DNA of 64,000 bases from the NCBI RefSeq assembly GCF_001639145.1, contig NZ_LROY01000002.1:652501-716500 (forward strand). Reading direction: 5' to 3'. Shown here piece after piece: positions 286-16,866 of the stretch (position 1 is the stretch's first letter; every line of letters begins with the position of its first letter). A program made the translations under genes and the position numbers. The stretch comes from Microbulbifer sp. Q7 (GTDB lineage: Bacteria; Pseudomonadota; Gammaproteobacteria; Pseudomonadales; Cellvibrionaceae). The notes beneath the pieces were generated by a model. It was not told the origin of the DNA. It worked only from the letters and a program-made list of their open reading frames with translations, and searched no databases.

Positions 286-1371
286 ATGCAGCGGCGTACC
301 TTGATCCAGTCCATGATGTCAGCACCCCTGTTGGGGGCGGCCGCGGCCAGTGTAGCCAGAGACAGTGGCCCATTGGCGTCCGCCGGCTACAGCAGCGGCG
401 ATTCCAGCCAGAAGGGTGCGGGTCTACTGCGTCCCAAGCGGCTCGAGGCGGGCATGACCGTGGGGCTGGTCACGCCGGCGAGTAATGCCTGGGAGGACGA
501 GGATATTCGTTTCGCCGGCGATGTGGTGCGCTCATTGGGGTTTGAAGTGAAGGAGGGCAAGCACCTGTATCGCCGCACCCAATACCTTGCGGGCCCGGAC
601 TCTGCCCGTGCCGAAGATTTCAACGAGATGTTTGCCGACAGCAACGTGGATGCCGTCTTCTGCCTGCGCGGCGGCTATGGTACGCCACGCATCCTGCCCA
701 TGCTCGACTACGGGTTGATTCGCAACAATCCCAAAGTATTACTCGGCTACAGCGACATAACCGCGCTGTTGAATGCGATCTATCACAGAAGTGGGGTGAT
801 GACCTTCCACGGTCCGATCGCTGCGCAGAATTTCACCGATTACACCCTGGCCGAATATCAAAAGGTACTGGTACACGGTGAGCGGCCGATACCCCTGGGC
901 GCGCCGCCACCCTTTGACTCGGCCCCGGGCCGGGTCGAAAACCGCAATCGCATCACCCGTTTCGCCGGTGGCCGCGCACGGGGACGCTTGATTGGCGGTA
1001 ACCTGTCTCTGATGACGAGTCTGGTCGGTACGCCCTTCGAGCCCGATTATCGCGGCAAAATTTTGTTTCTGGAAGACGTCAGCGAGGCACCGTACCGGGT
1101 GGATCGTATGCTCACCCAGCTCTGGCTCGCGGGAAAACTACAGCAGGTCGCAGGCATCGCTTTTGGCAAGTTCACGGATGCGGAAACCAGTGGCAATACC
1201 TTCAGCATGGAGCACGTATTACGCGAGCGCACCGCCAGTCTTGGCGTACCAGTCGTGCGCGGCCTGATGATTGGGCACGTGGAAGACCAGACCACGGTGC
1301 CGGTGGGGGCCATGGCAGAGCTGGACGGCGATGCCGGCACGCTGGTGTTGCGGGACTCGGTTGTCAGCTAA
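286..1371 (+). CDS. S66 family LD-carboxypeptidase (LdcA-like), probably exported
   Basis: Serine peptidase of family S66. Characterised LdcA enzymes remove the terminal D-Ala from murein tetrapeptides by cutting the L,D bond after meso-diaminopimelate. The family hallmarks are present: the GGYG turn (residues 129-132) and the nucleophile elbow GYSD with Ser156, followed by a TFHGP segment. At 361 residues it is longer than cytoplasmic LdcA (about 300) because of an N-terminal extension of about 45 residues that starts QRRTLIQ and continues with a short Ala-rich hydrophobic stretch. This looks like a Tat-type signal, so periplasmic action is inferred. The ATG has AGGAG about 8 bases upstream. 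The related MccF immunity peptidases share this fold, but the muramate genes downstream favour murein peptides as substrate. Confidence 0.85.
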   Translation: MQRRTLIQSMMSAPLLGAAAASVARDSGPLASAGYSSGDSSQKGAGLLRPKRLEAGMTVGLVTPASNAWEDEDIRFAGDVVRSLGFEVKEGKHLYRRTQYLAGPDSARAEDFNEMFADSNVDAVFCLRGGYGTPRILPMLDYGLIRNNPKVLLGYSDITALLNAIYHRSGVMTFHGPIAAQNFTDYTLAEYQKVLVHGERPIPLGAPPPFDSAPGRVENRNRITRFAGGRARGRLIGGNLSLMTSLVGTPFEPDYRGKILFLEDVSEAPYRVDRMLTQLWLAGKLQQVAGIAFGKFTDAETSGNTFSMEHVLRERTASLGVPVVRGLMIGHVEDQTTVPVGAMAELDGDAGTLVLRDSVVS

Positions 1372-1521
1372 TCGTGGGCTGCAGACTAAAAATTGGTGGC
1401 AGGTATCGGCCGCAGCGATAACTGCCACCAGTCTTCATCGGCAGCCAGATGTTAGTATGCATTTTGCCGCCCCGGTCGAATGCACATCGGCTTTAAAAAT
1501 ATAACAATAGCTTTACATCCT

Positions 1522-2916
1522 ATGACAGAACTTTCCTGGCTTACTCTTTTGCCGCCTTTTATTGCGATAGGCTTGGCTCTGCTCACCCGACAGGTTTACC
1601 TGGCCCTGTTTGCCGGAATCTGGCTTGGTTTTTTCCTGCTCAATCACGACGGTTTCTTCGCTTCGCTGGCGCAGGCACTGGATGGGGTGCTGGCGGTTCT
1701 GGCCAATCCCGGCGATGCGCGTGTAGTGATGTTCACACTGGTGATCGGTGCTTTCATTATTACTCTGGAGCGCAGCGGCGCGGTCAGCGGTTTTGTACGA
1801 TTTCTGGAACGCAGTCGCTGGGTTACCAACGGCAAGCGCGCGCAGTGGATGGCGTGGCTGGTGGGCATCGTCATCTTTATCGAGTCGAATATCACTGTGC
1901 TGGTGGCGGGCACCGTTTCGCGCCCGTTGTTCGATCGCTTCCGGATTGCCAGGGAGAAGCTCGCGTACATCATCGATTCCACGTCAGCGCCGGTATGCAT
2001 GTTGATTCCATTGAACGCTTGGGGTGCATTTAACCTCGGGCTGCTGGATGGGCTCGGTGTGGAGGATCCGCTGAAAGTACTGCTGGCGAGTATCCCGCTG
2101 AACCTGTACGCCATTGCTGCGGTCGCGCTTACGGCCTACACGATTTCCCGAAACTATAATCCGGGCCCGATGGCGGATGTGCAGGCGCGCACCAGTGGTG
2201 GTGATCTGGATGGTATCGACATCAGCGAAAGTATCGGTGAGAAAAGCCATATCAAACCGCGGGCCATTAATATGTTTTTGCCCGTTCTGGTATTGATTAT
2301 GGCGATGCCCCTCAGCCTGTGGGTCACCGGCGATGGCAAAATATTCGAGGGCTCTGGGTCGACTTCCGTACTCTGGGCGTCTCTGGCTGCTCTCACCACC
2401 GTTTCGGTGATGGTGTTGTTGCAGCGCAGTATGTCGCTGGACGAGCTCAGCCACACCTGGATGGAGGGCGCCGGGCGTATGCTGCCGTTGGCCATTATTC
2501 TGGTGTTGGCGCTCGCTCTGGGTGCGATCTCCAAGACTCTCGGCACTGGCCAGTATGTTGCCGGGATAGTGGGGGATACGATTCCACTGGCATTGTTGCC
2601 GGTGGTTATTTTTCTCGTATCTGGCGTGATTGCTTTTTCTGTGGGCTCTAGCTGGGGAACCTTCTCCATCATGTTGCCCATCGCCATTCCCGTAGCCAGC
2701 GCACTGGGTGCGGAGCCGGCACTATTCGTCGCCGCGGTACTGTCCGGTGGCATCTTTGGCGATCACAGTTCGCCCATTTCCGACACCACCATCGTGTCAT
2801 CCCTGGCGGCCGGCACCGAGCATATCGAGCATGTGCGCACACAGATACCCTACGCACTGCGCGCCGGTGCCGTGAGTGCGGTGGGTTTTGTTGTGCTCGG
2901 TTATGTAATGCTCTAG
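1522..2916 (+). CDS. NhaC-type Na+/H+ antiporter family membrane protein
   Basis: Polytopic inner-membrane protein of 464 residues with about 11-12 hydrophobic segments. It belongs to the NhaC-type ion transporter superfamily, recognised by the conserved C-terminal stretch GIFGDHSSPISDTTI and the preceding GSSWGTFSIMLP segment. Members exchange Na+ for H+, and some relatives carry organic or amino acids, so the substrate is open. The frame is open back to 1480, but the first residues of that longer version are not membrane-like. The ATG at 1522 begins MTELSWLTLLPP, the usual start of the family. It lies between the LD-carboxypeptidase and a PLP decarboxylase, which suggests either uptake or export of an amino acid or amine, or pH and sodium balance alongside decarboxylation. 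Confidence 0.8.
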   Translation: MTELSWLTLLPPFIAIGLALLTRQVYLALFAGIWLGFFLLNHDGFFASLAQALDGVLAVLANPGDARVVMFTLVIGAFIITLERSGAVSGFVRFLERSRWVTNGKRAQWMAWLVGIVIFIESNITVLVAGTVSRPLFDRFRIAREKLAYIIDSTSAPVCMLIPLNAWGAFNLGLLDGLGVEDPLKVLLASIPLNLYAIAAVALTAYTISRNYNPGPMADVQARTSGGDLDGIDISESIGEKSHIKPRAINMFLPVLVLIMAMPLSLWVTGDGKIFEGSGSTSVLWASLAALTTVSVMVLLQRSMSLDELSHTWMEGAGRMLPLAIILVLALALGAISKTLGTGQYVAGIVGDTIPLALLPVVIFLVSGVIAFSVGSSWGTFSIMLPIAIPVASALGAEPALFVAAVLSGGIFGDHSSPISDTTIVSSLAAGTEHIEHVRTQIPYALRAGAVSAVGFVVLGYVML

Positions 2917-2973: not shown

Positions 2974-5049
2974 ATGACAAAAAGCCCTTGTGAAGTGGTG
3001 CTGTTAACTGGCGATGGTGTATTTGCCAGCCGCTGGATCGAAGAACTGACGCCGCTCGCCGAACACGATACGGATGCGCCCATCGCGCTGGCATTTACAT
3101 ATGCCAGCGAAGGCGGATTGGAGTCTGCTCTGGCACGGGGTGCCGTACAGGTTCTGGTGGTGGACGATCAGGGGCTTGATGAAGACGGTGTGTCCACGAT
3201 CCTGGCCCGGGTGCGGGCGCAGCGTGCAGAGATTGACTGTGTACTGCTTACCGGCGCCGACGAAGCCTCGGGAACTGGTTTTGAATGCGTGATCTCCCGG
3301 GGCGAGTCCAATTACGGGGTGGTGTACCGCACCCTGCGGCGAATTCTGTTGGAGCGTATTGCAACGCCCTTCGCCGATGCACTGCGGGAATATGTGTACG
3401 CGGCGCGCGACTCCTGGCATACGCCCGGACACTCCAGTGGCGATAGTCTCAGCACCAGCCCGTGGATCGCCGACTTTTATCGCTTTATGGGCGAGCATAT
3501 CTTCAATACCGATCTCTCGGTAAGTGTGAAAATGCTGGACTCTTTGATGGACCCCATCAGTGTGATTCGCCAGGCCCAGCAACTCACTGCCAAGACATTT
3601 GGTGCGCACCAGAGTTACTTTGTTACCAATGGCACCTCTACCTCGAACAAGATTGTGCTGCAGCACCTGCTGCGCCATGGCGATCGGGTGATCGTAGACC
3701 GCAACTGCCACAAGTCTGTACACCATGCCATGATCATGAGCGGTGCGCTGCCGGTGTATCTGGAGTCTGCGGTCAACCAACACTTTGGCATCTACGGCCC
3801 GGTGCCGCAGCGGGAAATCTTCCGTGCCATTGATGCCAATCCTGGTGCTCGTCTGCTGGTGCTCACGTCATGTACTTATGATGGTCTGCGCTACGATCTG
3901 CGCCCAATTATCGACTACGCACACGCTGCCGGGTTGTACGTCCTGATCGACGAAGCCTGGTATGCCCACGGTCGCTTTCACCCGGCCCTGCGCCCAACTG
4001 CACTGGAATGTGGGGCGGATTTTGTTACCCAGTCGACGCATAAGATGCTCTCGGCCTTTTCGCAGGCGAGCATGATTCATGTGGGCGATTTCTCGTGGCA
4101 ATCGTCGGGTGATGGTGAGGCCCACGATGCATTTGATGCGGCCGGTTTCCGCGAAGACATCAATATGCACACCTCTACCAGCCCCCAGTACGGCATGATC
4201 GCGAGTCTCGATGTGGCGCGTAAGCAGATGAGCATTGAGGGTTATGAGGTGCTGGATCGCACTCTGGGATTTGCCGAGGAAATACGTCAGTTTGTCGATC
4301 AGAATACGGTTTTTCGCAGTCTGAATGCAGAAGACTTGTGTGGCCAAGCGCTGGCCAACGACGGCATTCGCCTCGACCCCACAAAAGTCACCATTGATGT
4401 AGGGCAGGCGGGCGTCAGCGCACCGCACGCACAGGCCTTGTTATTTTCCGATTTCGGTATTCAGGTGGAGAAGAACACCCACAATACGCTGTCGTTTCTG
4501 GTCACCATTGGCACCACCGAGAGCAAGGTATTGCGTCTTAAGCAGGCTCTGCGCAAGCTGTCAGACGGCGCATATCGTATCCGGGTACGCCGGGTTGCCG
4601 CCGCTGGCAATGAGGAAGAGCCAGTGCGCGGGCAGGGCCTGCCTAACCTGAGTGCAATTGTTGTTCTGCCACGCACGGCGTACTTTGCCCGGGGCGAAAA
4701 ACTGGCCTGGGAAGGGGATGGGCGCGCTGAGCTGATTGGCCGTATTGCCTGTGATGAGGTGGTGCCCTATCCACCGGGTATTCCCCTCCTGGTGCCTGGC
4801 CAGAAAATTACCCAAAGAATTCTCGATGCCATTATCGCTTTTACCAGTGAACGTGCCGATCTGGAAATGCACGGCTTGCGCCGTGAGGGCGGCTTACCGG
4901 CAATACGCGTATTGACGGAAAGCGAGACCGCTTTGGCGATGAAAGAGTACGAGGAACTGTTCACTCAGGAAAGTACCGAGGCGTCGTCCGGACTTGTGGT
5001 GTCAAAGGCTGTGGTATCAACGGTTGATACAGCGCGGGAGGTCGTGTGA
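2974..5049 (+). CDS. Orn/Lys/Arg decarboxylase family PLP enzyme
   Basis: Fold-I pyridoxal-phosphate decarboxylase of 691 residues. An N-terminal receiver-like wing domain (about 1-125) precedes the large PLP domain (about 135-520) and a C-terminal domain. The Schiff-base lysine is Lys357 in QSTHKMLS. Asp326 in LIDEAWYAHGRFHP should bind the pyridine nitrogen, and HKSVHHA (about 246-252) is typical of the family. Known members convert lysine, ornithine or arginine to diamines with release of CO2 and uptake of a proton. The form resembles the pseudomonad lysine decarboxylase group more than E. coli CadA, but the substrate cannot be read from the sequence. Its TGA overlaps the GTG of the next gene by four bases (GTGA), so it is translationally coupled to the dipeptidase-muramidase fusion. 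That places it in the peptidoglycan operon. Confidence 0.85.
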   Translation: MTKSPCEVVLLTGDGVFASRWIEELTPLAEHDTDAPIALAFTYASEGGLESALARGAVQVLVVDDQGLDEDGVSTILARVRAQRAEIDCVLLTGADEASGTGFECVISRGESNYGVVYRTLRRILLERIATPFADALREYVYAARDSWHTPGHSSGDSLSTSPWIADFYRFMGEHIFNTDLSVSVKMLDSLMDPISVIRQAQQLTAKTFGAHQSYFVTNGTSTSNKIVLQHLLRHGDRVIVDRNCHKSVHHAMIMSGALPVYLESAVNQHFGIYGPVPQREIFRAIDANPGARLLVLTSCTYDGLRYDLRPIIDYAHAAGLYVLIDEAWYAHGRFHPALRPTALECGADFVTQSTHKMLSAFSQASMIHVGDFSWQSSGDGEAHDAFDAAGFREDINMHTSTSPQYGMIASLDVARKQMSIEGYEVLDRTLGFAEEIRQFVDQNTVFRSLNAEDLCGQALANDGIRLDPTKVTIDVGQAGVSAPHAQALLFSDFGIQVEKNTHNTLSFLVTIGTTESKVLRLKQALRKLSDGAYRIRVRRVAAAGNEEEPVRGQGLPNLSAIVVLPRTAYFARGEKLAWEGDGRAELIGRIACDEVVPYPPGIPLLVPGQKITQRILDAIIAFTSERADLEMHGLRREGGLPAIRVLTESETALAMKEYEELFTQESTEASSGLVVSKAVVSTVDTAREVV

Positions 5050-6914
5050 AGAAAGAATGGAAGCAGGGTGCGCTATTTGCTCTCGTCGGCGCACTGGTGA
5101 TAGGCGGGGTTGCGCTCACCACCCACTATTCACAGGGAGAAATCCCGTCGTCAGAAGAAGCCAGTAGCGCTAATCAGGTTAAGCCGGATTTTGTATCGGT
5201 GCGTGGTAGCAATATCAAGGTTGCCATGCGCTATGTGACCACGGACAACCTGGTTGGCGAGCCGCTGGACGGGTACCGGGATAATCTCTGCATGTTGGCA
5301 GCGCCAGCCGCGCGCGCACTGGAAAAGGTTGCTGTGCGGCTGGCGGAAGAGGGGCTGGGGCTGGAACTGTTTGACTGTTACCGCCCGCAGCAGGCCGTCA
5401 ACCACTTTGTGCGCTGGGCCGCTGCGCCGGAAGATCACAGCACTAAGGCAGACTTCTACCCCCGGGAAAAAAAGTCCGAGATGTTTGAGCGGGGCTATAT
5501 TGCCGAGCGCTCTGGACACAGCCGTGGAGCGACCGTGGATCTGACGCTTTACCGATTGGATACCGGTGAAGCGCTGGATATGGGTACCGGGTTTGATTTT
5601 ATGGATACACGCTCGGCCACAGAGTATCCGCTGGATGATACCAGCGCGCGCGTCAATCGACTGCACCTGCGGGATGTCATGGCCGTCGAGGGTTTTGTCA
5701 ATTATGCGCAGGAGTGGTGGCACTACACTTACAAGCCCGAGCCCTATCCGGACACCTATTTTGATGTGCCGGTTTCTCTAGCTTCACTGCCAAATAAGGA
5801 GGCCACTGTAGCGGTATTGCGAACCGGCGCGGAGCAGGCCGAACTTTACCTCCCGTTACTGCGTGACCAGAAGGTGGGTCTGGTGGTGAACCAGACTTCC
5901 CGTGTGGGTGAATCGCATTTGATCGATTTCCTGCGCCAGCGACAGGTTGGCCTGCAGAAAATTTTCGCCCTGGAGCACGGTGTGCGCGGCGATGTGGAAA
6001 ATGGTGGCAAGGTAGAAGATGGTGTCGACGGGCCCAGCGGACTGCCCATTGTTTCGCTCTATGGCGGTAATTACGCACCCAGCGCGGAAGCTCTGGCGGA
6101 GCTGGACTGGCTGGTATTTGATATCCAGGACGTGGGAGTGCGCTTCTATACCTACATCAGCTCGTTGCACTACCTGATGCAGGCCTGCGCCGATCAACAG
6201 ATCCCGTTGCTGGTACTGGATCGTCCGAACCCGAATGGTGACTACATCGACGGACCTGTACTGGAAAAATCTTTTGAAAGTTTTGTGGGCATGCACCCCA
6301 TTCCGCTGGTACACGGCATGACGGTGGGAGAACTGGCGCAAATGATCAATGGTGAGGGCTGGCTGGATGGCGGTGCGCAATGTCCACTGACGGTCATTCC
6401 CGTAGCGAATTACCGCAAGAGCATGGCCTACAGCCTGCCTGTGCGCCCATCGCCCAACCTGCCGAATGATCTGTCGATCCGGTTGTATCCTTCCCTGGGA
6501 TTGTTCGAGGGCACCACCGTGAGTGTTGCGCGCGGTACCGATTTCCCGTTCCAGGCGCTGGGGCATCCGGACGATACCCAGGGTGCTTTTTCGTTTACCC
6601 CACAGCCAGTCGCCGGTGCCAGCGAGAATCCAAAGCACAAGGGTACTTCCCTGAGCGGTGACGATCTGCGCAATGCGGATACGCAGGTGCGCTTTTCACT
6701 GGAGCCGTTACTCTCCTGGTCTCGACGCACGGGCGAGTCACCCGAGGCGTTTTTCTCTCGCGCCGGTTTTTTTGACAAGCTCGCCGGCACCGATCAGTTG
6801 CGCAAGGCGGTTATGGTCGGGGCGTCTGCGGAACAGATCCGCGCGTCCTGGCAGTCGGATCTCGCGGCCTTTCGTGAGCAGCGGCAGCCCTATCTGTTAT
6901 ACCCGGAGCAATGA
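5046..6914 (+). CDS. Fusion: VanX-type D-Ala-D-Ala dipeptidase + NamZ exo-N-acetylmuramidase (DUF1343)
   Basis: Two enzymes in one 622-residue chain. Residues 1-25 form a signal sequence or membrane anchor (MKKEWKQG, then a hydrophobic run). Residues about 45-245 are an M15D VanX/DdpX dipeptidase: YRP with Arg113, the zinc motif SGHSRGATVD (His158, Asp165) and EWWH (Glu223 base, His226 ligand). Residues about 260-622 are a DUF1343/NamZ domain: VNQTSRVG, EHGVRG with the likely catalytic Glu310, FDIQDVGVRFYTYIS and GMHPIPLVHGMTVGELAQMI. NamZ releases MurNAc from the non-reducing end of murein fragments; VanX-type enzymes cut D-Ala-D-Ala. The start is GTG 5046, overlapping the decarboxylase stop. 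The stop overlaps the ATG of the next gene (ATGA). All key residues of both halves are present, so both activities are expected, most likely in the periplasm. Confidence 0.92.
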   Translation: MKKEWKQGALFALVGALVIGGVALTTHYSQGEIPSSEEASSANQVKPDFVSVRGSNIKVAMRYVTTDNLVGEPLDGYRDNLCMLAAPAARALEKVAVRLAEEGLGLELFDCYRPQQAVNHFVRWAAAPEDHSTKADFYPREKKSEMFERGYIAERSGHSRGATVDLTLYRLDTGEALDMGTGFDFMDTRSATEYPLDDTSARVNRLHLRDVMAVEGFVNYAQEWWHYTYKPEPYPDTYFDVPVSLASLPNKEATVAVLRTGAEQAELYLPLLRDQKVGLVVNQTSRVGESHLIDFLRQRQVGLQKIFALEHGVRGDVENGGKVEDGVDGPSGLPIVSLYGGNYAPSAEALAELDWLVFDIQDVGVRFYTYISSLHYLMQACADQQIPLLVLDRPNPNGDYIDGPVLEKSFESFVGMHPIPLVHGMTVGELAQMINGEGWLDGGAQCPLTVIPVANYRKSMAYSLPVRPSPNLPNDLSIRLYPSLGLFEGTTVSVARGTDFPFQALGHPDDTQGAFSFTPQPVAGASENPKHKGTSLSGDDLRNADTQVRFSLEPLLSWSRRTGESPEAFFSRAGFFDKLAGTDQLRKAVMVGASAEQIRASWQSDLAAFREQRQPYLLYPEQ

Positions 6915-8104
6915 GTGTGCAGCGGCATATCAACGACATTTTGCAACAGGTACCCAGCGGCCGACTGATGTCGGTTGATCTGCTGCGGGGGCTGGCCATC
7001 GCGGCCATGGTTCTGGTTAACAATCCCGGCAGCTGGTCTTACGTGTATGCGCCCATGGCCCACGCGCAGTGGCACGGCTGGACTCCGACCGATGTGATTT
7101 TCCCGCTGTTTCTGTTTGTCGTTGGCCTGTCGATGGTGCTGTCCTGTGGTCGCAGCCGGCCTTTCCCCGCAGTCGGTTGGGGGCAGTGGAGCAGGGCGCT
7201 CAAGTTGTTTGCACTGGGGCTGTTTCTGGCGGTGTTTTTCTACAATTTCCGCGACGACACCTACAACTGGGTACAGGATCGGCTTGAAGGCATTCGTTGG
7301 ATGGGTGTGTTACAGCGGATCGCGCTGGTTTACATCCTCTGCTGTTATCTGGTGCGCTGGCTTTCTTTGCCTGGGTTGGTGATCGCGGCGGTGCTCTGCA
7401 GCCTGATCCCCTGGCTGATGATGCTATTTTTGCCCTACCAGAATGCCGCTGGAGAAACCTTTCAGGGACAACTGGCATTCGGCAATCATTTTTCTGCCTG
7501 GCTGGACCAGTGGTTGCTCGGTGCAGAACATGTTTATTACCGCAGTGCCGAGCCTTTCCCGTTTGATCCCGAGGGTGTGCTGACCACCTTTGCTGCGGCT
7601 TCTACCTGTCTGCTTGGGGTCCTGGCCGGCCTGGCCTGGAAGCACTCGGCAGCGGATCGTGCATCGCAACTGCGTCTCTGTCGCACCTGGGCACTGGGTG
7701 GCGCGGCAATGTTGCTGGTAGGGCAGTTCTTGCATCCGCTGGTGCCCATCAACAAGGCGCTCTGGTCGCCGAGTTTTGTACTGGTTACAGCGGGTGTGTC
7801 TGCTCTGTTGTTGTCCGGACTCTATTACCTGGTGGATATTCGCGAACGCCGCCGGGCCCTGGCACCACTGCTGGTATTCGGCGTCAATGCCATCGCCCTG
7901 TTTATGCTCGCGGGTGTGGTGGGGCGGCTGCTGATCATGATGCCGGTGGGGGATACCACACTCAAAGGCTGGCTGTTCCATACTGTGTTCCAGCCCTTGT
8001 TTGGCAGCTACGGCGGTTCACTGGCATTTGCCGTGTCCAGCCTGGCGCTTTTCTACCTGGTGATGTGGCAGATGTATCGTCGCCGTATTATCTGGAAAGT
8101 ATGA
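6911..8104 (+). CDS. NagX-like / DUF5009 multi-pass acyltransferase family protein
   Basis: Integral membrane protein of 397 residues with about ten hydrophobic helices. It opens with the family signature SVDLLRGLAIAAMVLVNNPG, then HGWTPTDVIFPLFLFVVG. This group (DUF5009, NagX) is related to heparan-alpha-glucosaminide N-acetyltransferase, which acetylates glucosamine across a membrane. Bacterial members are often found in GlcNAc or chitin utilisation clusters, but their reaction is not firmly established. The ATG overlaps the previous stop by four bases, so it is coupled to the muramidase fusion. A role in handling amino sugars or muropeptides at the inner membrane is inferred from that position. 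Confidence 0.82.
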   Translation: MSVQRHINDILQQVPSGRLMSVDLLRGLAIAAMVLVNNPGSWSYVYAPMAHAQWHGWTPTDVIFPLFLFVVGLSMVLSCGRSRPFPAVGWGQWSRALKLFALGLFLAVFFYNFRDDTYNWVQDRLEGIRWMGVLQRIALVYILCCYLVRWLSLPGLVIAAVLCSLIPWLMMLFLPYQNAAGETFQGQLAFGNHFSAWLDQWLLGAEHVYYRSAEPFPFDPEGVLTTFAAASTCLLGVLAGLAWKHSAADRASQLRLCRTWALGGAAMLLVGQFLHPLVPINKALWSPSFVLVTAGVSALLLSGLYYLVDIRERRRALAPLLVFGVNAIALFMLAGVVGRLLIMMPVGDTTLKGWLFHTVFQPLFGSYGGSLAFAVSSLALFYLVMWQMYRRRIIWKV

Positions 8105-8126: not shown

Positions 8127-8162
8127 GTTGGACTGATTGTTGAACTAATTGTTGGACTCATT
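8127..8162 (+). repeat. Three tandem copies of a 12-base unit before glcD
   Basis: The bases 8127-8138, 8139-8150 and 8151-8162 are three adjacent near-copies of GTTGGACTGATT (second GTTGAACTAATT, third GTTGGACTCATT). They fill most of the gap between the NagX-like gene and the glcD start, and the last copy ends just ahead of the AAAGG ribosome-binding site. The unit is a multiple of three, and the third copy is open in the glcD frame, while TGA and TAA in copies one and two close it further upstream. The array could change glcD leader length by slippage. Confidence 0.8.
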
Positions 8163-8178
8163 GGTAAAGGTGAATCGT

Positions 8179-9633
8179 GTGACCGAAGGTGTGGATTCCA
8201 GTACACGGGCATTTCTCGCCGCACTTCGCCGAGTGTTCCCCGGCGAGCGCTTGCTGTGCGGGCGCGAAAATACAGCACCTTTCGAATGCGATGCGCTGCC
8301 GGTCTACTGTGAGGCGCCGCTGGCGGTTGCCCTCGCGCACAGCGAGCAGGATGTGGTGGCAGCGGTTCGGTTGTGTCATGAATATGGCGTGCCGCTGGTT
8401 TCCCGCGGAGCCGGCACCGGCCTCTCCGCCGGCGCTAAACCCATCGCGCAGGGCTTGCTTCTGGTCACCGCACCGATGAACCAGATTCTCGACCTGAATC
8501 CTCAGGCGATGACGGCGCGGGTGCAGCCCGGTGTCATCAATCAGCAGATTTCCGCCGCCGCGGCGCCACACGGGCTGTACTATGCGCCCGATCCCTCTTC
8601 CCAGATCGCCTGTTCCATTGGTGGCAACGTTGCGGAAAATGCCGGTGGTGTGCATTGCCTGAAATACGGCGTCACCGTACAGAACGTGCTTGCAGTGCGG
8701 GTAGTATCTGCCGCTGCCGGCAGTGTGGGCGAGGTGCTGACCCTCGGCGGCGATTGCCTCTGCCAGCCGGGATACGATTTACTCGCACTGGTGCACGGCA
8801 GTGAAGGCGGTCTGGGGGTGATTACCGAGGTGACCGTCAAACTGACACCGGTACCGGAAAAAACACACACCCTGATGGCGGATTTTGCCAGTGTTCGCGC
8901 CGCGGCCGATGCGGTGTCCGCCATCGTGCGGGCGGGCGTGATCCCCGCCGCCCTGGAAATGATGGACAAGCTTGCCATCTCTGCCACCGAAGCGTTTTGC
9001 CATGCCGGCTATAACCTGGAAGCGGCGGCGATACTGTTGATTGACCTGGACGGGCACCCCCTGGAAGTGGACGCGGAGCTCGCGGTGGTAGAACAGGTCT
9101 TAAGTGCTTCTGGTGCCGTGCAGGTGCAGCGTGCGGCAGACACAGTACAGCGGGCTCGCTGGTGGAAAGGGCGCAAGAGTGCCTTCCCAGCCATTGGTCG
9201 TTTGAGCCCGGATTACTACTGTATTGATGGCACGGTGCCTCGGCACCGGATCGGCGAGGTGCTGGAAGCAACCGCGCGATTCGCCGAGCACTATAAGCTT
9301 CAGGTAGCCAATGTCTTTCACGCGGGTGACGGGAACCTGCACCCGATCATTATGTTCGACGGTAGCGTACCGGATGCCCTGGAGCGCACGGAAAAACTGG
9401 CCGCGGACATTCTCGAATACTGCATAGCGGTGGGTGGCACCATTACCGGCGAACATGGTGTGGGTATCGAAAAAATCAACCAGATGGCGGTGCAATTCAG
9501 CGATGCCGAGCTGGAACAGTTTCGCGCGATCAAACGCGCATTGGATCCTTTCCAGCTTCTGAATCCCGACAAGCAGATTCCTACCCTGGCCCGGTGCCAG
9601 GAGTATCGCGCGTTGAGGCAAGACCGTGGCTGA
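8179..9633 (+). CDS. glcD: FAD-linked 2-hydroxyacid oxidase subunit GlcD-like (likely D-lactate)
   Basis: FAD-binding (PF01565) catalytic subunit of a GlcDEF-type oxidase, about 484 residues. It shows the N-terminal FAD-binding segments SRGAGTGLSAGAKP and GGNVAENAGG, and the C-terminal FAD-linked oxidase part with NVFHAGDGNLHP and GTITGEHGVGIEK. The family oxidises glycolate or D-lactate and passes electrons through the FeS subunit to quinone. The open frame reaches TTG 8149, but GTG 8179 has AAAGG about 8 bases upstream and is preferred. It is followed by glcE (8-base overlap) and glcF. No malate synthase or GlcC regulator is nearby. A MurQ gene, which makes D-lactate, lies next door, so D-lactate is the more likely substrate. 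That assignment is inference. Confidence 0.85.
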   Translation: MTEGVDSSTRAFLAALRRVFPGERLLCGRENTAPFECDALPVYCEAPLAVALAHSEQDVVAAVRLCHEYGVPLVSRGAGTGLSAGAKPIAQGLLLVTAPMNQILDLNPQAMTARVQPGVINQQISAAAAPHGLYYAPDPSSQIACSIGGNVAENAGGVHCLKYGVTVQNVLAVRVVSAAAGSVGEVLTLGGDCLCQPGYDLLALVHGSEGGLGVITEVTVKLTPVPEKTHTLMADFASVRAAADAVSAIVRAGVIPAALEMMDKLAISATEAFCHAGYNLEAAAILLIDLDGHPLEVDAELAVVEQVLSASGAVQVQRAADTVQRARWWKGRKSAFPAIGRLSPDYYCIDGTVPRHRIGEVLEATARFAEHYKLQVANVFHAGDGNLHPIIMFDGSVPDALERTEKLAADILEYCIAVGGTITGEHGVGIEKINQMAVQFSDAELEQFRAIKRALDPFQLLNPDKQIPTLARCQEYRALRQDRG

Positions 9634-10756
9634 AATGACAAACCCGGATACCAATCAGGATTGTTCCGAAGACCTCGCCGCTCAGGTACGTGAATGCTAT
9701 GCCGCAAATGCAGAGCTTGAAGTGGGAGCGACTTCGCGGCCGCATCTGGTGGTGGGAGGCAACGGTAGCCGTGTCGCATTGGGTATGCCCGGCGACGCCA
9801 CGCTCATGCTGGGCGCGCACCGGGGCATTATCGACTATCAGCCCGAGGAGCTGACGCTGCGCGCCCGTGCGGGCACCCTGCTGAGTGAATTGGAAACGTT
9901 GCTGGCAGAAAATAACCAGTGCTTTGCGGCGGAGATACCACAGCCTTCCCCGCAGAGTACCCTCGGTGGCGCCATTGCCTGCGGATGGGACGGACCTTCC
10001 CGTGCGTTTGGCATGGCACTGCGCGACAGCCTGCTGGGCTGCAGGTTGATCAATGGCCGCGGGGAAATCGTCAACTTCGGCGGGCAGGTCATGAAAAATG
10101 TGGCGGGCTATGATCTGGCGCGCCTGCAGGTTGGCGCGCTGGGTACCCTGGGGGCGATTCTCGATGTCACCCTGCGACTGCAACCGCGCGCTGAACATAC
10201 GACCTCGGTCAGTTTTGTGGTCGAGCCGGATGCACTGGGCCAGTGGTGGCAACGCACACGGAATCTGCGCCCACTGCTGACGGGTACCTGCTATCTGGAA
10301 GGGCGACTGTATCTGCGCATCAGTGGACGAGCCATCGCGGTACAGGACCTGCTCACACAGCTGGGTGGCGACGCCACGGACTTCGACTGGACAGCGTTGA
10401 CGAACCTTCAGTTACCGTTTTTCTGCAGTGAGCGACTCGCCTGTGTGCAGGTGCCGCGATATGCCCGATTGCCGGTAACCACCGGGCGGGCGCTGATCGA
10501 GTGGGAAGGTGCGCGGGTCTGGGTGCGGGATGGTGATCATCACGGACTCGCCCGTGCCGCCGCCGATCTCGGCGGCTTCGTACAGGTGCTGCGCGGACCG
10601 CTGGTTTCTGCACAGGCGGATGCGCCGGAGTGGCATCGCGCATTGCGCGACGCCCTCGACCCCAGGGGCCTGTTTAATCCCGTACAGTTCCAGACACGAT
10701 TTTGCAGCACTGACGTGTCGCCCGAACACGTGGCTGATGGAGTGGGGCACGAATAA
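9626..10756 (+). CDS. glcE: Glycolate/D-lactate oxidase FAD subunit GlcE
   Basis: Second FAD-binding subunit of the GlcDEF complex, 376 residues. It carries the PF01565 fold, seen as GNGSRVALG, then QSTLGGAIACGWDGPSRAFG and GQVMKNVAGYDLARL, and is shorter than GlcD, as expected for GlcE. In E. coli all three Glc subunits are needed for activity. The GTG start overlaps the end of glcD by eight bases, giving coupled translation; an internal ATG three codons later is an alternative start. glcF follows with no gap. Confidence 0.87.
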   Translation: MAEMTNPDTNQDCSEDLAAQVRECYAANAELEVGATSRPHLVVGGNGSRVALGMPGDATLMLGAHRGIIDYQPEELTLRARAGTLLSELETLLAENNQCFAAEIPQPSPQSTLGGAIACGWDGPSRAFGMALRDSLLGCRLINGRGEIVNFGGQVMKNVAGYDLARLQVGALGTLGAILDVTLRLQPRAEHTTSVSFVVEPDALGQWWQRTRNLRPLLTGTCYLEGRLYLRISGRAIAVQDLLTQLGGDATDFDWTALTNLQLPFFCSERLACVQVPRYARLPVTTGRALIEWEGARVWVRDGDHHGLARAAADLGGFVQVLRGPLVSAQADAPEWHRALRDALDPRGLFNPVQFQTRFCSTDVSPEHVADGVGHE

Positions 10757-12040
10757 ATGCAGGTCAATCTGATTGACGGGCTTCTGCAGGAGTCCGAAAA
10801 GCAACGCGCCGAGCAGGTACTGAATGCCTGTGTGCACTGTGGGTTCTGCACCGCAACCTGTCCCACCTACCTGCAGGGGGGCAATGAGCTGGATAGCCCG
10901 CGCGGGCGCATTTACCTGATCAAGGAAATGCTGGAGCAGGGTACTGCGAGCGATGCCACCCGCACCCATCTCGACCGTTGTGTTACCTGTCTCAGTTGTG
11001 AAACCACCTGTCCCTCCGGAGTGGAATATCACACGTTGGTGGCCATTGGGCGCACCACCAGTGAACGCCTTGCCCCCCGCAGCCCGTGGCAGAAGGCACT
11101 GCGCTGGGGACTGCGCAACTTGCTGGTAACCCCCGGGCTTTTTTCCGGGTTAATCAACATTGGTCGGAAATTTTCGGCACTGTTGCCGGCAGCGGTCAAG
11201 CGCGTGTACTTTCCTCCGCAAGCAGAAAAGATGGCACTGACCAACCCGGTGCTCACCGCAAACACACCGCGTCCGGCCCTTGAGCGTGGCACGGTGCTGA
11301 TCGTGCGTGGGTGCGTGCAGCCGTCGCTGAGACCGGAAACCGATGCGGCGCTGGAAAAGATACTGCAACACTGTGGCGTACCCGTCTGCATCAGTGCGGC
11401 GGTCAGCTGCTGCGGTGCGGCCAGCTTTCATACCAGTGGCGAAGCCCAGGCGCGCGTACTGGCGCGGGCCAATATCGATGCCTGGTGGCCCCTTTACGAG
11501 CAGCAACAGGCGGAAAGCGCCCCGCTGCGGGCCATTGTGTCGAGCGCATCTGGCTGCGGTGTGCATTTGAAAGATTATCCCCATGTGCTCGCGGATGACA
11601 CGGAATACCTGGAAAAAGCCCAGGTTCTGGCCGACTTGATGCGCGATCCTGTCGAGCTACTGGAGTCGGTGTTTGACGAGTCCACGCCCGAGTTTCTGGA
11701 AAAACTGCGTGAACAAAAGCTCGTGTTCCACTGTCCCTGTACCCTGCAGCATGGTCAGGCGCTGCCCGGCCGGGTTGAGGCTCTGCTGCATAAACTGGGG
11801 GTACAACTCCCGGTAGTGACCGATACCCACCTGTGCTGTGGTTCCGCAGGTACCTATTCCATTTTACAGCCCACCATGTCCAGGCGGTTGCGCGAAGAAA
11901 AGCTGCAATCGTTGCAGGCGAGCCATCCTGAGACCATCATCACCGCCAATATCGGATGCCAGCTTCATTTGCAGGCCGGAACCGAAACGCCGGTGCGTCA
12001 CTGGCTGGAACTTCTGGCGGACGGGCTACAACCCTCTTGA
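10757..12040 (+). CDS. glcF: Glycolate/D-lactate oxidase iron-sulfur subunit GlcF
   Basis: Iron-sulfur electron-transfer subunit, 427 residues. Two ferredoxin-type 4Fe-4S motifs are visible: Cys25, 28, 31 and 35 (CVHCGFCTATC) and Cys75, 78, 81 and 85 (CVTCLSCETTC). They are followed by two CCG-type cysteine-rich domains (SCCGAASFH near 216, LCCGSAGTYS near 360). Such subunits carry electrons from the FAD subunits to the quinone pool at the inner membrane. The ATG directly follows the glcE stop codon. A convergent hairpin lies between this gene and murQ. Confidence 0.9.
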   Translation: MQVNLIDGLLQESEKQRAEQVLNACVHCGFCTATCPTYLQGGNELDSPRGRIYLIKEMLEQGTASDATRTHLDRCVTCLSCETTCPSGVEYHTLVAIGRTTSERLAPRSPWQKALRWGLRNLLVTPGLFSGLINIGRKFSALLPAAVKRVYFPPQAEKMALTNPVLTANTPRPALERGTVLIVRGCVQPSLRPETDAALEKILQHCGVPVCISAAVSCCGAASFHTSGEAQARVLARANIDAWWPLYEQQQAESAPLRAIVSSASGCGVHLKDYPHVLADDTEYLEKAQVLADLMRDPVELLESVFDESTPEFLEKLREQKLVFHCPCTLQHGQALPGRVEALLHKLGVQLPVVTDTHLCCGSAGTYSILQPTMSRRLREEKLQSLQASHPETIITANIGCQLHLQAGTETPVRHWLELLADGLQPS

Positions 12041-12224: not shown

Positions 12225-13211
12225 TCAGGTCACAGGTTCTTCCACTGTTCGGCCAGTATTTCGAGCCTGGTCAATCTTTTGTTCCTGCTTGATTGCATTG
12301 ATTTGCCGCAGTGCCTGGCGTAGAAAACCGTCGGATTTTTCCAAGGCGCTTCCGGCATCGTGACGGTTCAGGCCGCTCAATATCATCATGATGGCCAGTT
12401 TGGCATTGTGCTCACATTCCTCGAGTACACGATCTGCCTCCGCCAGCTCCACGCCGGTCGCTTCCATTACAATTCGACGGGTGCGGCTCACCAGCTTTTC
12501 ATTGGTCGCTTTTACGTCCACCATGAGGTTGTAAAAGCTCTTGCCAATACGGATCATGCTGGCGGTTGTCAGCATATTGAGTACCAGCTTCTGAGCCGTG
12601 CCGGCTTTCATCCGTGTAGAGCCGGTTAACACTTCCGGGCCGACTTCGGGGAGGATTGCAATGTCTGCTTCAGCGGCGATGGCGGCAGATTTGTTACAGG
12701 AAAGTGCTACGGTGGTACAGCCCAGGCTGCGGGCGTAGCGCAGTCCGCCTATGACATAGGGCGTGCGACCGCTGGCGGCGATACCGACAACCACGTCATT
12801 TTCCGTCAGTTGAATCTTGCGGAGATCCTCACCCGCGAGGGTGAGGCTGTCTTCGGCCCCTTCCTGGGCGCGATATACGGCCTCTTCACCACCGGCGATC
12901 AGCGCCACCACCATCTCTTCACTGACGCCATAGGTGGGCGGGCACTCTACCGCATCCAGAATACCAAGCCTGCCGCTGGTGCCTGCCCCGATATAAACGA
13001 GCCGCGCACCGCGTTTAAAGGCCTCCGCGATGGCATCGACGGCCCGGGCGATTTGGGGGATTTCGCGGTGAACCGCGGCGGGTACTTCCCGGTCCGCCGC
13101 GTTGATCTTTTCCAGAATCTGCTCACTGGGCAAGAGATCGATGTCCAGGGTGTCTGCGTTGCGCGCCTCACTGGCGAGGGTAGCCAACTCATTGATCAGT
13201 TGCGTATTCAT
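12225..13211 (-). CDS. murQ: N-acetylmuramic acid 6-phosphate etherase MurQ
   Basis: Cytoplasmic SIS-domain lyase that splits the ether bond of MurNAc-6-phosphate, giving GlcNAc-6-phosphate and D-lactate. Clear family marks are [21 protein letters not shown] (Glu89 is the likely catalytic acid), [28 protein letters not shown] and the C-terminal RHDAGSALE segment. At 328 residues it is slightly longer than E. coli MurQ (298) through a charged C-terminal tail of about 25 residues. It is the last gene of a leftward operon after the kinase and symporter genes, which would supply its substrate. The D-lactate product links it to the adjacent convergent glcDEF genes. Confidence 0.95.
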
Positions 13212-13289: not shown

Positions 13290-14177
13290 TCAGCGAAGTG
13301 GGTCGATGCTGTGCGCTAGTGCTTTCTGTCGTGCCAGCATGCAGGCGCCGTCCAGCGCGGTTCCCAAGGGTGGGATTTGTCGCTGTTGATGGTCGGGGTG
13401 TAAATGCGGACTCAGCTTGTCCGCGAGACCGCCAAGAATGGCCAGTGGTAAATTCTCGTCCCCACTGGCAGCCTGAATCAGGCGATCGACTTCTGCGGCG
13501 GTTTTTCCAATGATGTCCCGTGCCAGAGGGCATTCTGGAAGATGACTGAACACGGCTGGGGCCAGCGCCGCGTATTCACGGGATCCGGCTTGCTGTAACC
13601 ATGGCAGAATTTGCGCGCGCTGCTCCCCAACCTCGGTCATCACCTGCTGGCAAAGTGCGCTCACCGCTCTGCCGTGGGTATCCAGCTCCCACAACAGTGC
13701 GCGTACCAGGCTCTTGCCAATGGCTGCGCCGCTGCCTTCATCGCCAACGGCCAATCCCCAACCGCCGTATTGGCGGATTTCACCGTTGCGCCCGAGTCGC
13801 ATCGCCACCGAGCCGGTACCAATAGCGACCATCACAATCGGGGTCCCAGCGCCGGCCCCCAGCAGCGAGGTCTGTGCGTCCGACGCGATCTGCACACTGG
13901 CAAACCCCAGTGTACAAAGGCGCTGCCGAAGCTTCTCTGCGGAAGCCGGGTTGCCGGCGCCGGCGACACCGCAGGCCAGATGCACCTGGTTGGGGTGAAC
14001 CCGCTCCCGCGCCAGTACCTGCCGGCTCAGGCCGGCAATATTGTTGATCGCTCCGTCCAGGTCCTGGGTCAGTGAGCTTGCACCGGACTTGAGCGTGAGT
14101 CGCTCACCATGCGCATCCTCAAGGCGGGCCAGTGTCTTGGTGCCACCACCATCTATCCCTAGAAAATATCCGTTCAT
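13290..14177 (-). CDS. BadF/BadG-type sugar kinase, probable MurNAc kinase
   Basis: ATP-dependent kinase of the BadF/BadG/BcrA/BcrD ASKHA family, 295 residues. The N-terminal phosphate-binding loop is FLGIDGGGTKT, the second is VAIGTGSVAMRLG, and WGLAVGDEGSGAAIG is characteristic of N-acetylglucosamine kinase-like members. MurK of Clostridium, which phosphorylates both MurNAc and GlcNAc at the 6-position, belongs to this family. It lies 15 bases after the symporter and 78 bases before murQ in the same operon. No PTS component is present, so a kinase is required to make the MurQ substrate. MurNAc as substrate is inferred from this context. Confidence 0.87.
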   Translation of the reverse strand: MNGYFLGIDGGGTKTLARLEDAHGERLTLKSGASSLTQDLDGAINNIAGLSRQVLARERVHPNQVHLACGVAGAGNPASAEKLRQRLCTLGFASVQIASDAQTSLLGAGAGTPIVMVAIGTGSVAMRLGRNGEIRQYGGWGLAVGDEGSGAAIGKSLVRALLWELDTHGRAVSALCQQVMTEVGEQRAQILPWLQQAGSREYAALAPAVFSHLPECPLARDIIGKTAAEVDRLIQAASGDENLPLAILGGLADKLSPHLHPDHQQRQIPPLGTALDGACMLARQKALAHSIDPLR

Positions 14178-14192
14178 GGTTGCGTACGTTGG

Positions 14193-15782
14193 TTATCCAT
14201 TGGCTGTGGTCTGATTGCGGATGATTGCGTTGTCCGCTGAGAGCTCGGGAGATGGCTTACCCAGGTTGCACACTGCAAAGGAAGCCAGCGTGCCCAGGCA
14301 AAGCTGCCAGGGGAACGCGATAACCAACGGATCGTCCGTGCCGGTGAGCAGGGTGATCATCCAGGGTTGCTGTAGCAGAGTCACCACAAACCCGACAACC
14401 AGGGCCCAGCCGACACTGCCGGCGTTGCCGCGGCCGGTAAACAGGGCGGTGAAAAATACACCCAGGAGTCCCGAGTAGGCGAAGACCATCACTGACAGCG
14501 CAAAGGTGATCAGCGGCAGGTCGCTCATCTGTTGCCAGTAAAAACACAATATCGCCATACCGCCCAAGGTAGTTGCCACAATCGCCATACCCCAGCGGCC
14601 GGCACGCACGAAATGCGCGGCCGGCTTTTGTACCTTGCGCTGACTTAACCAGTGCCGGTACAGGTCTTCCGTGAGCACGCTGGCCATGGAATTGAGACTG
14701 GAATTGAGCGTGGACAGTGCCGCGGCAATCACACCGATGGTGACCAGGCCGCGCAGACCGGCGGGCATTTCATGCAACACGTAGTGCATGAACACGGTGA
14801 CATCGCCACCGCTGGGTTCGGACACACTGGCGCCGGCCATCAATTCAGGGGACTGGTAAAAAATATGCAGCAGCAAACCGATACCCATGAAAACGGCCAT
14901 GACCGGTACCACCATGACCACGGAATACAGCACTGCACGGGCGCCATCGCGGGGCGTTTTGCAGGTAAGAATGCGCTGAGTAACATCCTGGTCGAGGCCG
15001 AAGGCCGCAATGTTTAACAGTACAAAACCGGTTAGCGTGGCCCAGAGATTAAATGGGTCACTCAGGTCCCAGCGGGTATCGACCAGCGTGAGTTTGGAAG
15101 CCCCGCCATCGGATGGGGCGGCGAGTGCCCCAACAATTTGACCCAGATCAGCGGGAATCTGCCAGAGCAGCACTGCCACTACCGCGATCGCGGCACTGAC
15201 GTAAACCGCGCACTGCAGTACATCGCTCTGAATCACCGAGCGCACGCCCCCGATCAGCGTCTGCAACAAGCCTGCCGCACTGAGAAGAATGACGGCGGCA
15301 ATGACGTGGTTTGCGGCAATGTCGTTAAACAGAATCATGGAAACCGCGATGGCTGCCATATACAGGCGTGCGCCACTGGCAAATACCCGGCCGAGCAGAT
15401 AAATACCGCCGGCGCGATGTTTCGCTCGCTCCCCGAAGCGGGATTGCAGTAATTCATAAACGGTCGTGACGCGATTGGCGTAAAAGCGTGGTATCAGATA
15501 GCGGGCAACGATAACTGCAGCAATCACCGCGCCTACATTGGTGAACAGGTAGGTGAGGTCGCCGCGATAACCCAGGTCCGGTCCGCCGAGAAACGTGGCG
15601 GCGGATTGCGTGGTGGCCAGGGTAGAAATGGCGACCATCCACATCGGCATGCTGTTTCGGGCCAGGAAGTAATCGCGGCTATCTTCTGTGCGGCGCTGGC
15701 TGAAGTGCCAGCCGGACGCGGCCAGTATTGCCAGGTAAAGCGCGAAAATTCCCCAGTCCAGTCCGGTAAACTGCAGTTCCAT
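14193..15782 (-). CDS. Sodium/solute symporter (SSS family), probable MurNAc importer
   Basis: Inner-membrane protein of 529 residues with about 13 hydrophobic helices. It belongs to the sodium:solute symporter family: DYFLARNSMPMWMVAISTLATTQSAATFLGGP near the N-terminus, then GGVRSVIQSDVLQ and FGLDQDVTQRILTCKTP. Several SSS carriers import sugars or sialic acids with Na+. It is the first gene of the leftward kinase-murQ operon and diverges from the murR-type regulator, so uptake of free MurNAc (or a related amino sugar) is inferred. The ATG has a purine-rich TGAGAG about 10 bases upstream. Confidence 0.85.
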   Translation of the reverse strand: MELQFTGLDWGIFALYLAILAASGWHFSQRRTEDSRDYFLARNSMPMWMVAISTLATTQSAATFLGGPDLGYRGDLTYLFTNVGAVIAAVIVARYLIPRFYANRVTTVYELLQSRFGERAKHRAGGIYLLGRVFASGARLYMAAIAVSMILFNDIAANHVIAAVILLSAAGLLQTLIGGVRSVIQSDVLQCAVYVSAAIAVVAVLLWQIPADLGQIVGALAAPSDGGASKLTLVDTRWDLSDPFNLWATLTGFVLLNIAAFGLDQDVTQRILTCKTPRDGARAVLYSVVMVVPVMAVFMGIGLLLHIFYQSPELMAGASVSEPSGGDVTVFMHYVLHEMPAGLRGLVTIGVIAAALSTLNSSLNSMASVLTEDLYRHWLSQRKVQKPAAHFVRAGRWGMAIVATTLGGMAILCFYWQQMSDLPLITFALSVMVFAYSGLLGVFFTALFTGRGNAGSVGWALVVGFVVTLLQQPWMITLLTGTDDPLVIAFPWQLCLGTLASFAVCNLGKPSPELSADNAIIRNQTTANG

Positions 15783-16011: not shown

Positions 16012-16866
16012 ATGGGATCACTGGCCAAAATCCGCGCAATGCGCGACTCCATGTCAAATCACGAGCGTCGTATAGCCGATTTTCTCCTGGATAATGTGGA
16101 AATCGTGCGCTCGCATTCATCAAAAGCCCTTGCGGAACAGGTGGGAGTTTCACAGTCGAGTGTCGTGAAATTCAGCCAGAAGCTGGGTTATAAAGGTTAT
16201 TCGGACTTCAAACTTTCCCTCAGTGAGTCCGTGGCCCGTTCAGCAATGTTGCCTCAGGCGATTCACGGTGACATTGCTTCAGACGATGACCTGGCAACGG
16301 TCGCTCGAAAGCTAATTAGCCGGAAGAATATGGCCCTGAATGAAACGGTCATGGCCAACTCGGAAGATTCGTTGATCCGCTCAGCGGAGGCTTTGCGAAC
16401 GGCTAAGCGAATATTGCTGTTCGGGGTGGGTGCGTCCTCATTAGTGGCTCGGGATATTGCTTACAAGCTAATGAAACTGGGTAAATCGGTGCTGATCGAA
16501 AGCGACACCCATGTCCAGGTGGCCAATGCTGCAACGCTCGGGGAAGGTGATCTGGTTTTTGCGATTTCTGAGTCTGGAACCACTCAAGACGTAGTCAGGG
16601 TTGCTCAGACTGGCGTTGCCCAGGGTGCTGAGGTTTTATCTCTGACCCGCTTCACCCGGAACCCACTGACTGAATTGGCGACCTTTCCCCTCTACTGCGT
16701 GGCAAACGAAACGGAGGCGCGCAGTTCATCGATCCTTGCGCGCACCGCACAGTTTATGGTGATTGACCTTCTGTTTATTCTAATTTCACAGAGAGACCGA
16801 AAAGCCAATGAACTGTTTGAGCGCAGCCGGCAGGCGGTTGAAGTGTTGAGACACCATTCCAAGTGA
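16012..16866 (+). CDS. MurR/RpiR family transcriptional regulator
   Basis: A 284-residue regulator of the RpiR type. An N-terminal HTH_6 domain (about 1-77, with SKALAEQVGVSQSSVVKFSQ) is joined to a C-terminal SIS phosphosugar-binding domain (about 120-260, with LLFGVGASSLVARDIAYKL and FAISESGTTQDVV). Family members sense phosphorylated sugars; MurR of E. coli represses MurNAc genes and is released by MurNAc-6-phosphate. It diverges from the symporter-kinase-murQ operon, which is the natural target. The ATG at 16012 is chosen because an upstream in-frame ATG at 15985 runs into TAG after five codons. No strong ribosome-binding site is evident. Confidence 0.88.
   Translation: MGSLAKIRAMRDSMSNHERRIADFLLDNVEIVRSHSSKALAEQVGVSQSSVVKFSQKLGYKGYSDFKLSLSESVARSAMLPQAIHGDIASDDDLATVARKLISRKNMALNETVMANSEDSLIRSAEALRTAKRILLFGVGASSLVARDIAYKLMKLGKSVLIESDTHVQVANAATLGEGDLVFAISESGTTQDVVRVAQTGVAQGAEVLSLTRFTRNPLTELATFPLYCVANETEARSSSILARTAQFMVIDLLFILISQRDRKANELFERSRQAVEVLRHHSK

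Follow-up and report, generated by a model that had tools for sequence, protein, structure and literature searches.

A single gene of Microbulbifer sp. Q7 joins a VanX-type D-Ala-D-Ala dipeptidase domain to a NamZ-type exo-N-acetylmuramidase domain. The gene lies at positions 5046 to 6914 of a 64,000-nucleotide stretch of contig NZ_LROY01000002.1 (hereafter the window), and our analysis confirmed that its sequence specifies a genuine protein of two domains, which begins with an export-type stretch and retains the residues of both predicted active sites intact. The product is quite probably a bifunctional, periplasm-facing enzyme, which would have arisen once in the genus Microbulbifer by deletion between two adjacent, already export-signalled genes of a peptidoglycan-utilisation locus.

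Domains, active sites and export-type start

Profile searches found Peptidase_M15 (PF01427, 160.4 bits against a Pfam cut-off of 27), NamZ_N (PF07075, 259.5 bits against 26.9) and NamZ_C (PF20732, 100.4 bits against 25) in one chain, so that the initial annotation was right as to the fusion, its coordinates, its strand and its domains. When the protein was compared by sequence with entries of the Protein Data Bank, the VanX half matched VanX (1r44; residues 58-243, expect value (E) 3.6e-53, 186 residues without a gap) and the NamZ half was nearest to the NamZ-type entry 4jja (residues 260-621, E 1.3e-99). A GGGAGG motif ends 4 bases before the GTG start, and the gene overlaps by 4 bases both the decarboxylase gene (OKR_DC) upstream and the NagX-like gene downstream. 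An artefact of assembly or frame was ruled out, since the frame is unbroken in eight genomes and is also found in separate metagenome records.

The ungapped alignment with 1r44 (offset +42) places VanX Arg71, His116, Asp123, Glu181 and His184, which we take to be the zinc ligands, base and arginine of the active site, at Arg113, His158, Asp165, Glu223 and His226. A 47-row M15 alignment shows these five as invariant, and a 50-row NamZ alignment does so for Glu310 of the EHG motif, presumably the catalytic glutamate of NamZ. All six, named as intact in the initial annotation, are identical in the eight fused genomes. The VanX half has its domain and active-site residues in common with the VanX/M15D dipeptidase 1r44 and differs from it by the export-type start, the fusion to NamZ and a setting in a cell-wall-use locus rather than in a glycopeptide-resistance cluster. 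The NamZ half belongs, judged by paper titles, to the family of the exo-N-acetylmuramidase NamZ/YbbC of Bacillus subtilis and of NamZ1/2 of Tannerella forsythia, none of which is known to be fused to a peptidase.

Signal-like starts and lipobox-type cysteines were assigned by eye throughout. The hydrophobic N-terminal stretch of the window protein, correctly called an export signal in kind by the initial annotation, falls within a helix (residues 3-24) of one predicted structure (AlphaFold, alignment A3). A lipobox-type cysteine is present in 6 of 11 fused sequences and absent from the window protein, which has LTTH at the site, and from four others; because it is missing, the window protein may be anchored in the membrane or plainly cleaved. 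All seven separate intact VanX proteins of the genus (six encoded beside NamZ, one elsewhere) have a signal-like start ending in such a cysteine, and the same holds for 8 of the 14 separate NamZ proteins, the other six having a hydrophobic start without cysteine. The fused proteins have retained the VanX start alone, and NamZ's own signal is gone. Since the separate relatives of both halves already bear signal-like starts, export would be older than the fusion. That an exported version must be special because VanX itself is cytoplasmic finds no support, given these seven proteins and the title record of a periplasmic dipeptidase in Salmonella. This enzyme, PcgL, is reportedly a D-Ala-D-Ala dipeptidase, exported as the window protein is predicted to be, and presumably consists of a single domain.

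Origin and distribution of the fusion

Matches were found in 23 of 48 Microbulbifer genomes, one of them (G016) with a weak M15 match only. NamZ is present in 22, and the full fused frame runs without a stop in eight. Among the other 14 NamZ genomes, an intact VanX gene is adjacent and upstream in six (G047, G026, G013, G004, G012 and G014), VanX is broken in G046 and it lies far off in G022. In G046 (M. yueqingensis; L047 10205-10423, L086) only the C-terminal part of VanX is left, adjoining an intact NamZ gene.

The distance from the EWWHY motif of VanX to the GAEQ/R motif of NamZ is 231-260 base pairs (bp) in all six separate pairs, an interval that contains the VanX stop, a spacer and the signal-like start of NamZ. 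The same distance is 120-153 bp, in frame, in all eight fused genes: about 80-140 bp went at the join, and with them the stop of VanX, the spacer and the signal of NamZ. In trees of 36 NamZ and 29 VanX domains, the 11 fused Microbulbifer sequences form one clade (support 95/92 for NamZ and 90/83 for VanX) with no separate sequence inside. The trees left out three of the six close fused proteins, P0001 (by eye a near copy of G032), P0004 and P0006 (apparently from G001), as well as the broken VanX of G046. As the fused sequences are one clade in both trees, a single event, most simply a deletion, accounts for the fusion in Microbulbifer. The initial annotation had considered that close relatives might carry separate genes, with a sequencing join here; separate genes do occur in relatives, but the join is inherited, being present in eight genomes. 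The ratio of nonsynonymous to synonymous substitution rates (dN/dS), estimated from six pairwise comparisons and rough because several dS values exceed 1, is 0.02-0.06 in the VanX half and 0.04-0.11 in the NamZ half; in the signal region it is 0.19-0.57, and in the linker (13-15 codons) 0.27-1.08. Purifying selection thus acts on both halves, whose low ratios indicate that both are kept by selection, and none acts on the linker.

Across a sample of 293 genomes of the order, Microbulbifer included, 57 gave any match and the full-length fused form was found only in G000 and G017, both Microbulbifer. Five genomes of the order outside the genus have a NamZ-type match, and an M15 match was detected in just one of them, on another contig, by a search that may miss some: its Escherichia coli control, where we would expect a VanX homologue, gave no PF01427 match. 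VanX adjoined NamZ at none of 72 non-Microbulbifer loci against six of eight Microbulbifer loci (in one case as a remnant), among the best 80 of at least 592 confirmed stretches, which were surveyed within 6 kilobases (kb) where the contig allowed and did not include Simiduia. The separate NamZ (P0037) and VanX (P0257) of Simiduia sp. 21SJ11W-1, whose contigs are equal in length, were placed among Microbulbifer sequences in the trees.

Automatic annotation already has both domains in one protein. Four database proteins (P0007, P0008, P0009 and P0010) begin within the fused frame, either in the VanX domain or shortly behind it. In G025, G002 and G019, the apparent sources of P0007, P0009 and P0010, the fused frames are open throughout, and the internal starts of these three proteins look like gene-call starts. 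Owing to such internal starts, annotation probably lists too few of these fusions.

Both domains in one protein, as the initial annotation had proposed looking for, were met again beyond the Microbulbifer proteins. P0126, a 623-residue metagenome protein (named DUF1343 family / D-alanyl-D-alanine dipeptidase at JGI), carries VanX and NamZ in the same order and is 39% identical to the window protein over 589 columns. It falls outside the Microbulbifer fused clade in both trees, which makes it, by its sequence, a second, independent fusion; the great length of its NamZ branch makes its precise position in the tree uncertain. The VanX domain is also fused to an S66 LD-carboxypeptidase (P0188) and to Amidase_2 (P0127) in metagenome proteins, and to PF00144 serine hydrolases in at least 60 proteins (60 of 120 listed among 286 matches). 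These partners point to the same setting; in the present locus S66 and PF00144 proteins are encoded by separate genes. A further metagenome protein, P0194, combines a VanX domain with PF03734 in a precomputed domain list.

PMC2605481 tabulates a fusion of a DD-peptidase (PF00144) with DUF1343, which resembles the window protein in joining NamZ to a cell-wall peptidase and differs from it in that the peptidase is a serine enzyme and not of the M15 family. A 791-residue frame in G075, a genome of the same order (L065 250-2625), similarly combines a beginning that looks, by eye, like a serine hydrolase with a second half of the NamZ type. No title among the literature matches listed, whose coverage leaves out most subscription journals, concerned a VanX-NamZ fusion or a Microbulbifer peptidoglycan locus. 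Each domain, their annotated co-occurrence and the printed NamZ-serine peptidase pair were thus known; new are the origin in one event, with fused and separate forms persisting in a single genus, the second, independent fusion and the all-or-none locus for wall use.

The surrounding locus

The genes around the fusion are listed in Table 1. Together with genes upstream of the window, they likely form a cell-wall-eating (peptidoglycan-utilisation) locus, as judged from their predicted products. Gene order near the fusion is kept across the genus, with MurQ in 20 and LdcA in 19 of 21 relatives' stretches, and the two arginines at the LdcA start recur in all 19 relatives' genes examined. The Orn/Lys/Arg-type decarboxylase gene accompanies all 15 loci in which VanX, whether fused, separate or broken, lies beside NamZ (the window included) and three of the seven without. 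A tie of the decarboxylase to use of the diamino acid of stem peptides is a guess.

Table 1. The VanX-NamZ fusion gene, its parts and its neighbours in the window
Feature	Positions	Strand	Remarks
LD-carboxypeptidase (S66, LdcA-like) with twin-arginine-type start (by eye)	286..1371	+	only PF02016 match in the genome; NF008424 below cut-off
Na+/H+ antiporter-family (PF03553) transporter	1480..2916	+	profile match; family level only
Orn/Lys/Arg-type pyridoxal-phosphate decarboxylase	2974..5049	+	profile match; family level only
VanX-NamZ fusion gene	5046..6914	+	622 residues; one intact 622-codon frame, GTG start
N-terminal export region	5046..5177	+	residues 1-44; hydrophobic stretch about 8-24 (by eye); no lipobox cysteine (by eye)
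Peptidase M15 (VanX/M15D) domain	5190..5774	+	residues 49-243; Pfam, 1r44 match, invariant residues
Linker, fast-changing, site of the gene join	5775..5819	+	residues 244-258
NamZ_N domain	5874..6467	+	residues 277-474; holds Glu310
NamZ_C domain	6483..6902	+	residues 480-619; Pfam
NagX/HGSNAT-like membrane acetyltransferase	6911..8104	+	NagX equivalog 162.1 bits, below cut-off 480
GlcD-like flavin adenine dinucleotide (FAD) oxidase, candidate D-lactate oxidase subunit	8149..9633	+	below GlcD equivalog cut-offs; only full-length match in the genome
GlcE-like subunit	9626..10756	+	270.2 bits, cut-off 284
GlcF-like Fe-S subunit	10757..12040	+	510.3 bits, cut-off 333
MurQ, N-acetylmuramic acid 6-phosphate etherase	12225..13211	-	TIGR00274 400.8 bits, over cut-off 302
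BadF-type sugar kinase (NagK/MurK-like)	13290..14177	-	107.8 bits, below NagK equivalog cut-off 370
Sodium:solute symporter-like protein, candidate sugar importer	14193..15782	-	168.5 bits, below TIGR00813 cut-off 184
MurR/RpiR-type regulator	16012..16866	+	254.3 bits, below equivalog cut-off 355

The region upstream of the window encodes a serine hydrolase (PF00144), another regulator of the RpiR type, an NlpC/P60 protein, TonB-dependent receptors, a protein resembling L-Ala-D/L-Glu epimerases (254 bits, cut-off 500), an Amidase_2 protein (about 26 kb from the fusion gene), two D-glutamate cyclase-type proteins and a NagZ-like GH3 protein (193.7 bits against the NF003740 cut-off of 207). Four of these products begin with a lipobox-like stretch: the serine hydrolase, the NlpC/P60 and Amidase_2 proteins and the GH3 protein. 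Adjoining genes for D-Glu_cyclase (PF07286) and GLUCM-like_C (PF14336) proteins, at L174 9149-10955, would be apt for the use of D-glutamate. The occurrence of GH3 (counted with an E ceiling of 1e-100, chosen to exclude other GH3 genes) coincides with that of NamZ: 22 of the 48 Microbulbifer genomes have both and the other 26 have neither, these genomes being related and not independent samples. The two genes share a contig, 2.9-33 kb apart, in 21 of the 22 genomes and are on separate contigs in G015.

Proposed working and alternative readings

We infer the following order of steps, with the localisation, activities and substrates that it implies. Wall fragments would be cut outside the cytoplasm by the amidase, the NlpC/P60 endopeptidase, the NagZ-like GH3 enzyme and the LD-carboxypeptidase, which bears a Tat-type signal. 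The NamZ half would take N-acetylmuramic acid (MurNAc) off the free end of peptide-free MurNAc-GlcNAc (GlcNAc, N-acetylglucosamine), while the LD-carboxypeptidase, or a similar cut, would free D-Ala-D-Ala from pentapeptide ends for the VanX half to split into two D-Ala. MurNAc would then be imported, phosphorylated and cleaved by MurQ to GlcNAc-6-phosphate and D-lactate, the latter being oxidised by GlcDEF, which would explain the presence of GlcDEF in the locus. Going by the residues and the gene content, the most likely substrate of the VanX half is free D-Ala-D-Ala and not pentapeptide, and an LD-cut of pentapeptides is the likely source of this dipeptide. The fusion itself probably serves mainly to ensure co-export and equal amounts of both halves.

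Several observations weigh against this reading. The protein scores 220.8 bits with the NCBIfam VanX equivalog NF033115, whose cut-off is 320, and is therefore VanX-type rather than VanX itself; together with the replacement of VanX Ser115 by Gly157, this score makes an exact dipeptide specificity of the VanX half less certain. The source of free D-Ala-D-Ala is assumed. Six of the 22 Microbulbifer genomes with NamZ gave no VanX match, so VanX looks dispensable to the locus, and GlcDEF was not found at 5 of the 22 loci (G006, G022, G037, G042 and G005), all of which have NamZ and MurQ. Many names of the neighbours rest on scores under curated equivalog cut-offs. Finally, the NamZ half is well folded and the VanX half badly in the AlphaFold model from alignment A2, and the reverse is true with A3; as neither model folds both halves well, the models do not fix their mutual arrangement.

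The fusion could also be a neutral accident, in which a deletion within an operon joined two co-exported, mutually independent enzymes and was kept as nothing was lost. This is a real possibility, though one we lean against: the unconstrained linker of varying length, the genomes that hold both genes apart in the same order and the loss at the joint of a stop, a spacer and a second signal are what it would lead one to expect, but the 11 fused sequences form one clade with no separate one within, and the unrelated P0126 has the same domain order. That the locus recycles the products of the cell's own wall turnover, rather than using foreign wall as food, appears unlikely. According to PMC5061867, B. 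subtilis has ybbC beside murQ and nagZ in a murQRP-amiE-nagZ-ybbC cluster, and NagZ, LdcA and AmpD are cytoplasmic recycling enzymes, which would suit recycling. Against it stand the all-or-none occurrence of the NamZ-GH3 pair and the TonB-dependent receptors and D-glutamate cyclase genes near GH3, which, with GlcDEF in the operon, fit use as food.

The VanX half might instead trim D-Ala off stem pentapeptides as a DD-carboxypeptidase, the protein then attacking both ends of one murein fragment. We regard this as very improbable: an exported-type enzyme in a murein locus and the Ser115 to Gly157 change would be compatible with it, but the closest solved relative, aligned without a gap, is the dipeptidase VanX, and VanX Y21, S114 and D142, which we take to serve in dipeptide binding, are retained as Y63, S156 and D184. 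PMC6403190 describes VanX as a dipeptidase and M15 relatives of the VanXY type as acting on both substrates, with a second cavity that has no equivalent in VanX. Of the two roles put forward in the initial annotation, the use of scavenged D-Ala-D-Ala fits the locus well, and pentapeptide trimming is the weaker, VanX being a dipeptidase without the second cavity.

Tentatively, with doubt slightly outweighing confidence, we propose that Microbulbifer possesses a dedicated wall-eating gene set of about 40-50 kb, the counterpart of a polysaccharide-utilisation locus, in which a DD-dipeptidase and an exo-muramidase have been welded so that freed D-Ala-D-Ala and MurNAc ends are cleared together. The fusion is a clean one, with the joined and separate states both alive in one genus, and it connects the scavenging of cell wall with dipeptidases of the VanX type, which are familiar chiefly from vancomycin resistance. 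If the proposal is true, such bacteria would use VanX-type enzymes to scavenge wall, unconnected with glycopeptide resistance, and the all-or-none gene set could let marine bacteria feed on the walls of dead bacteria.

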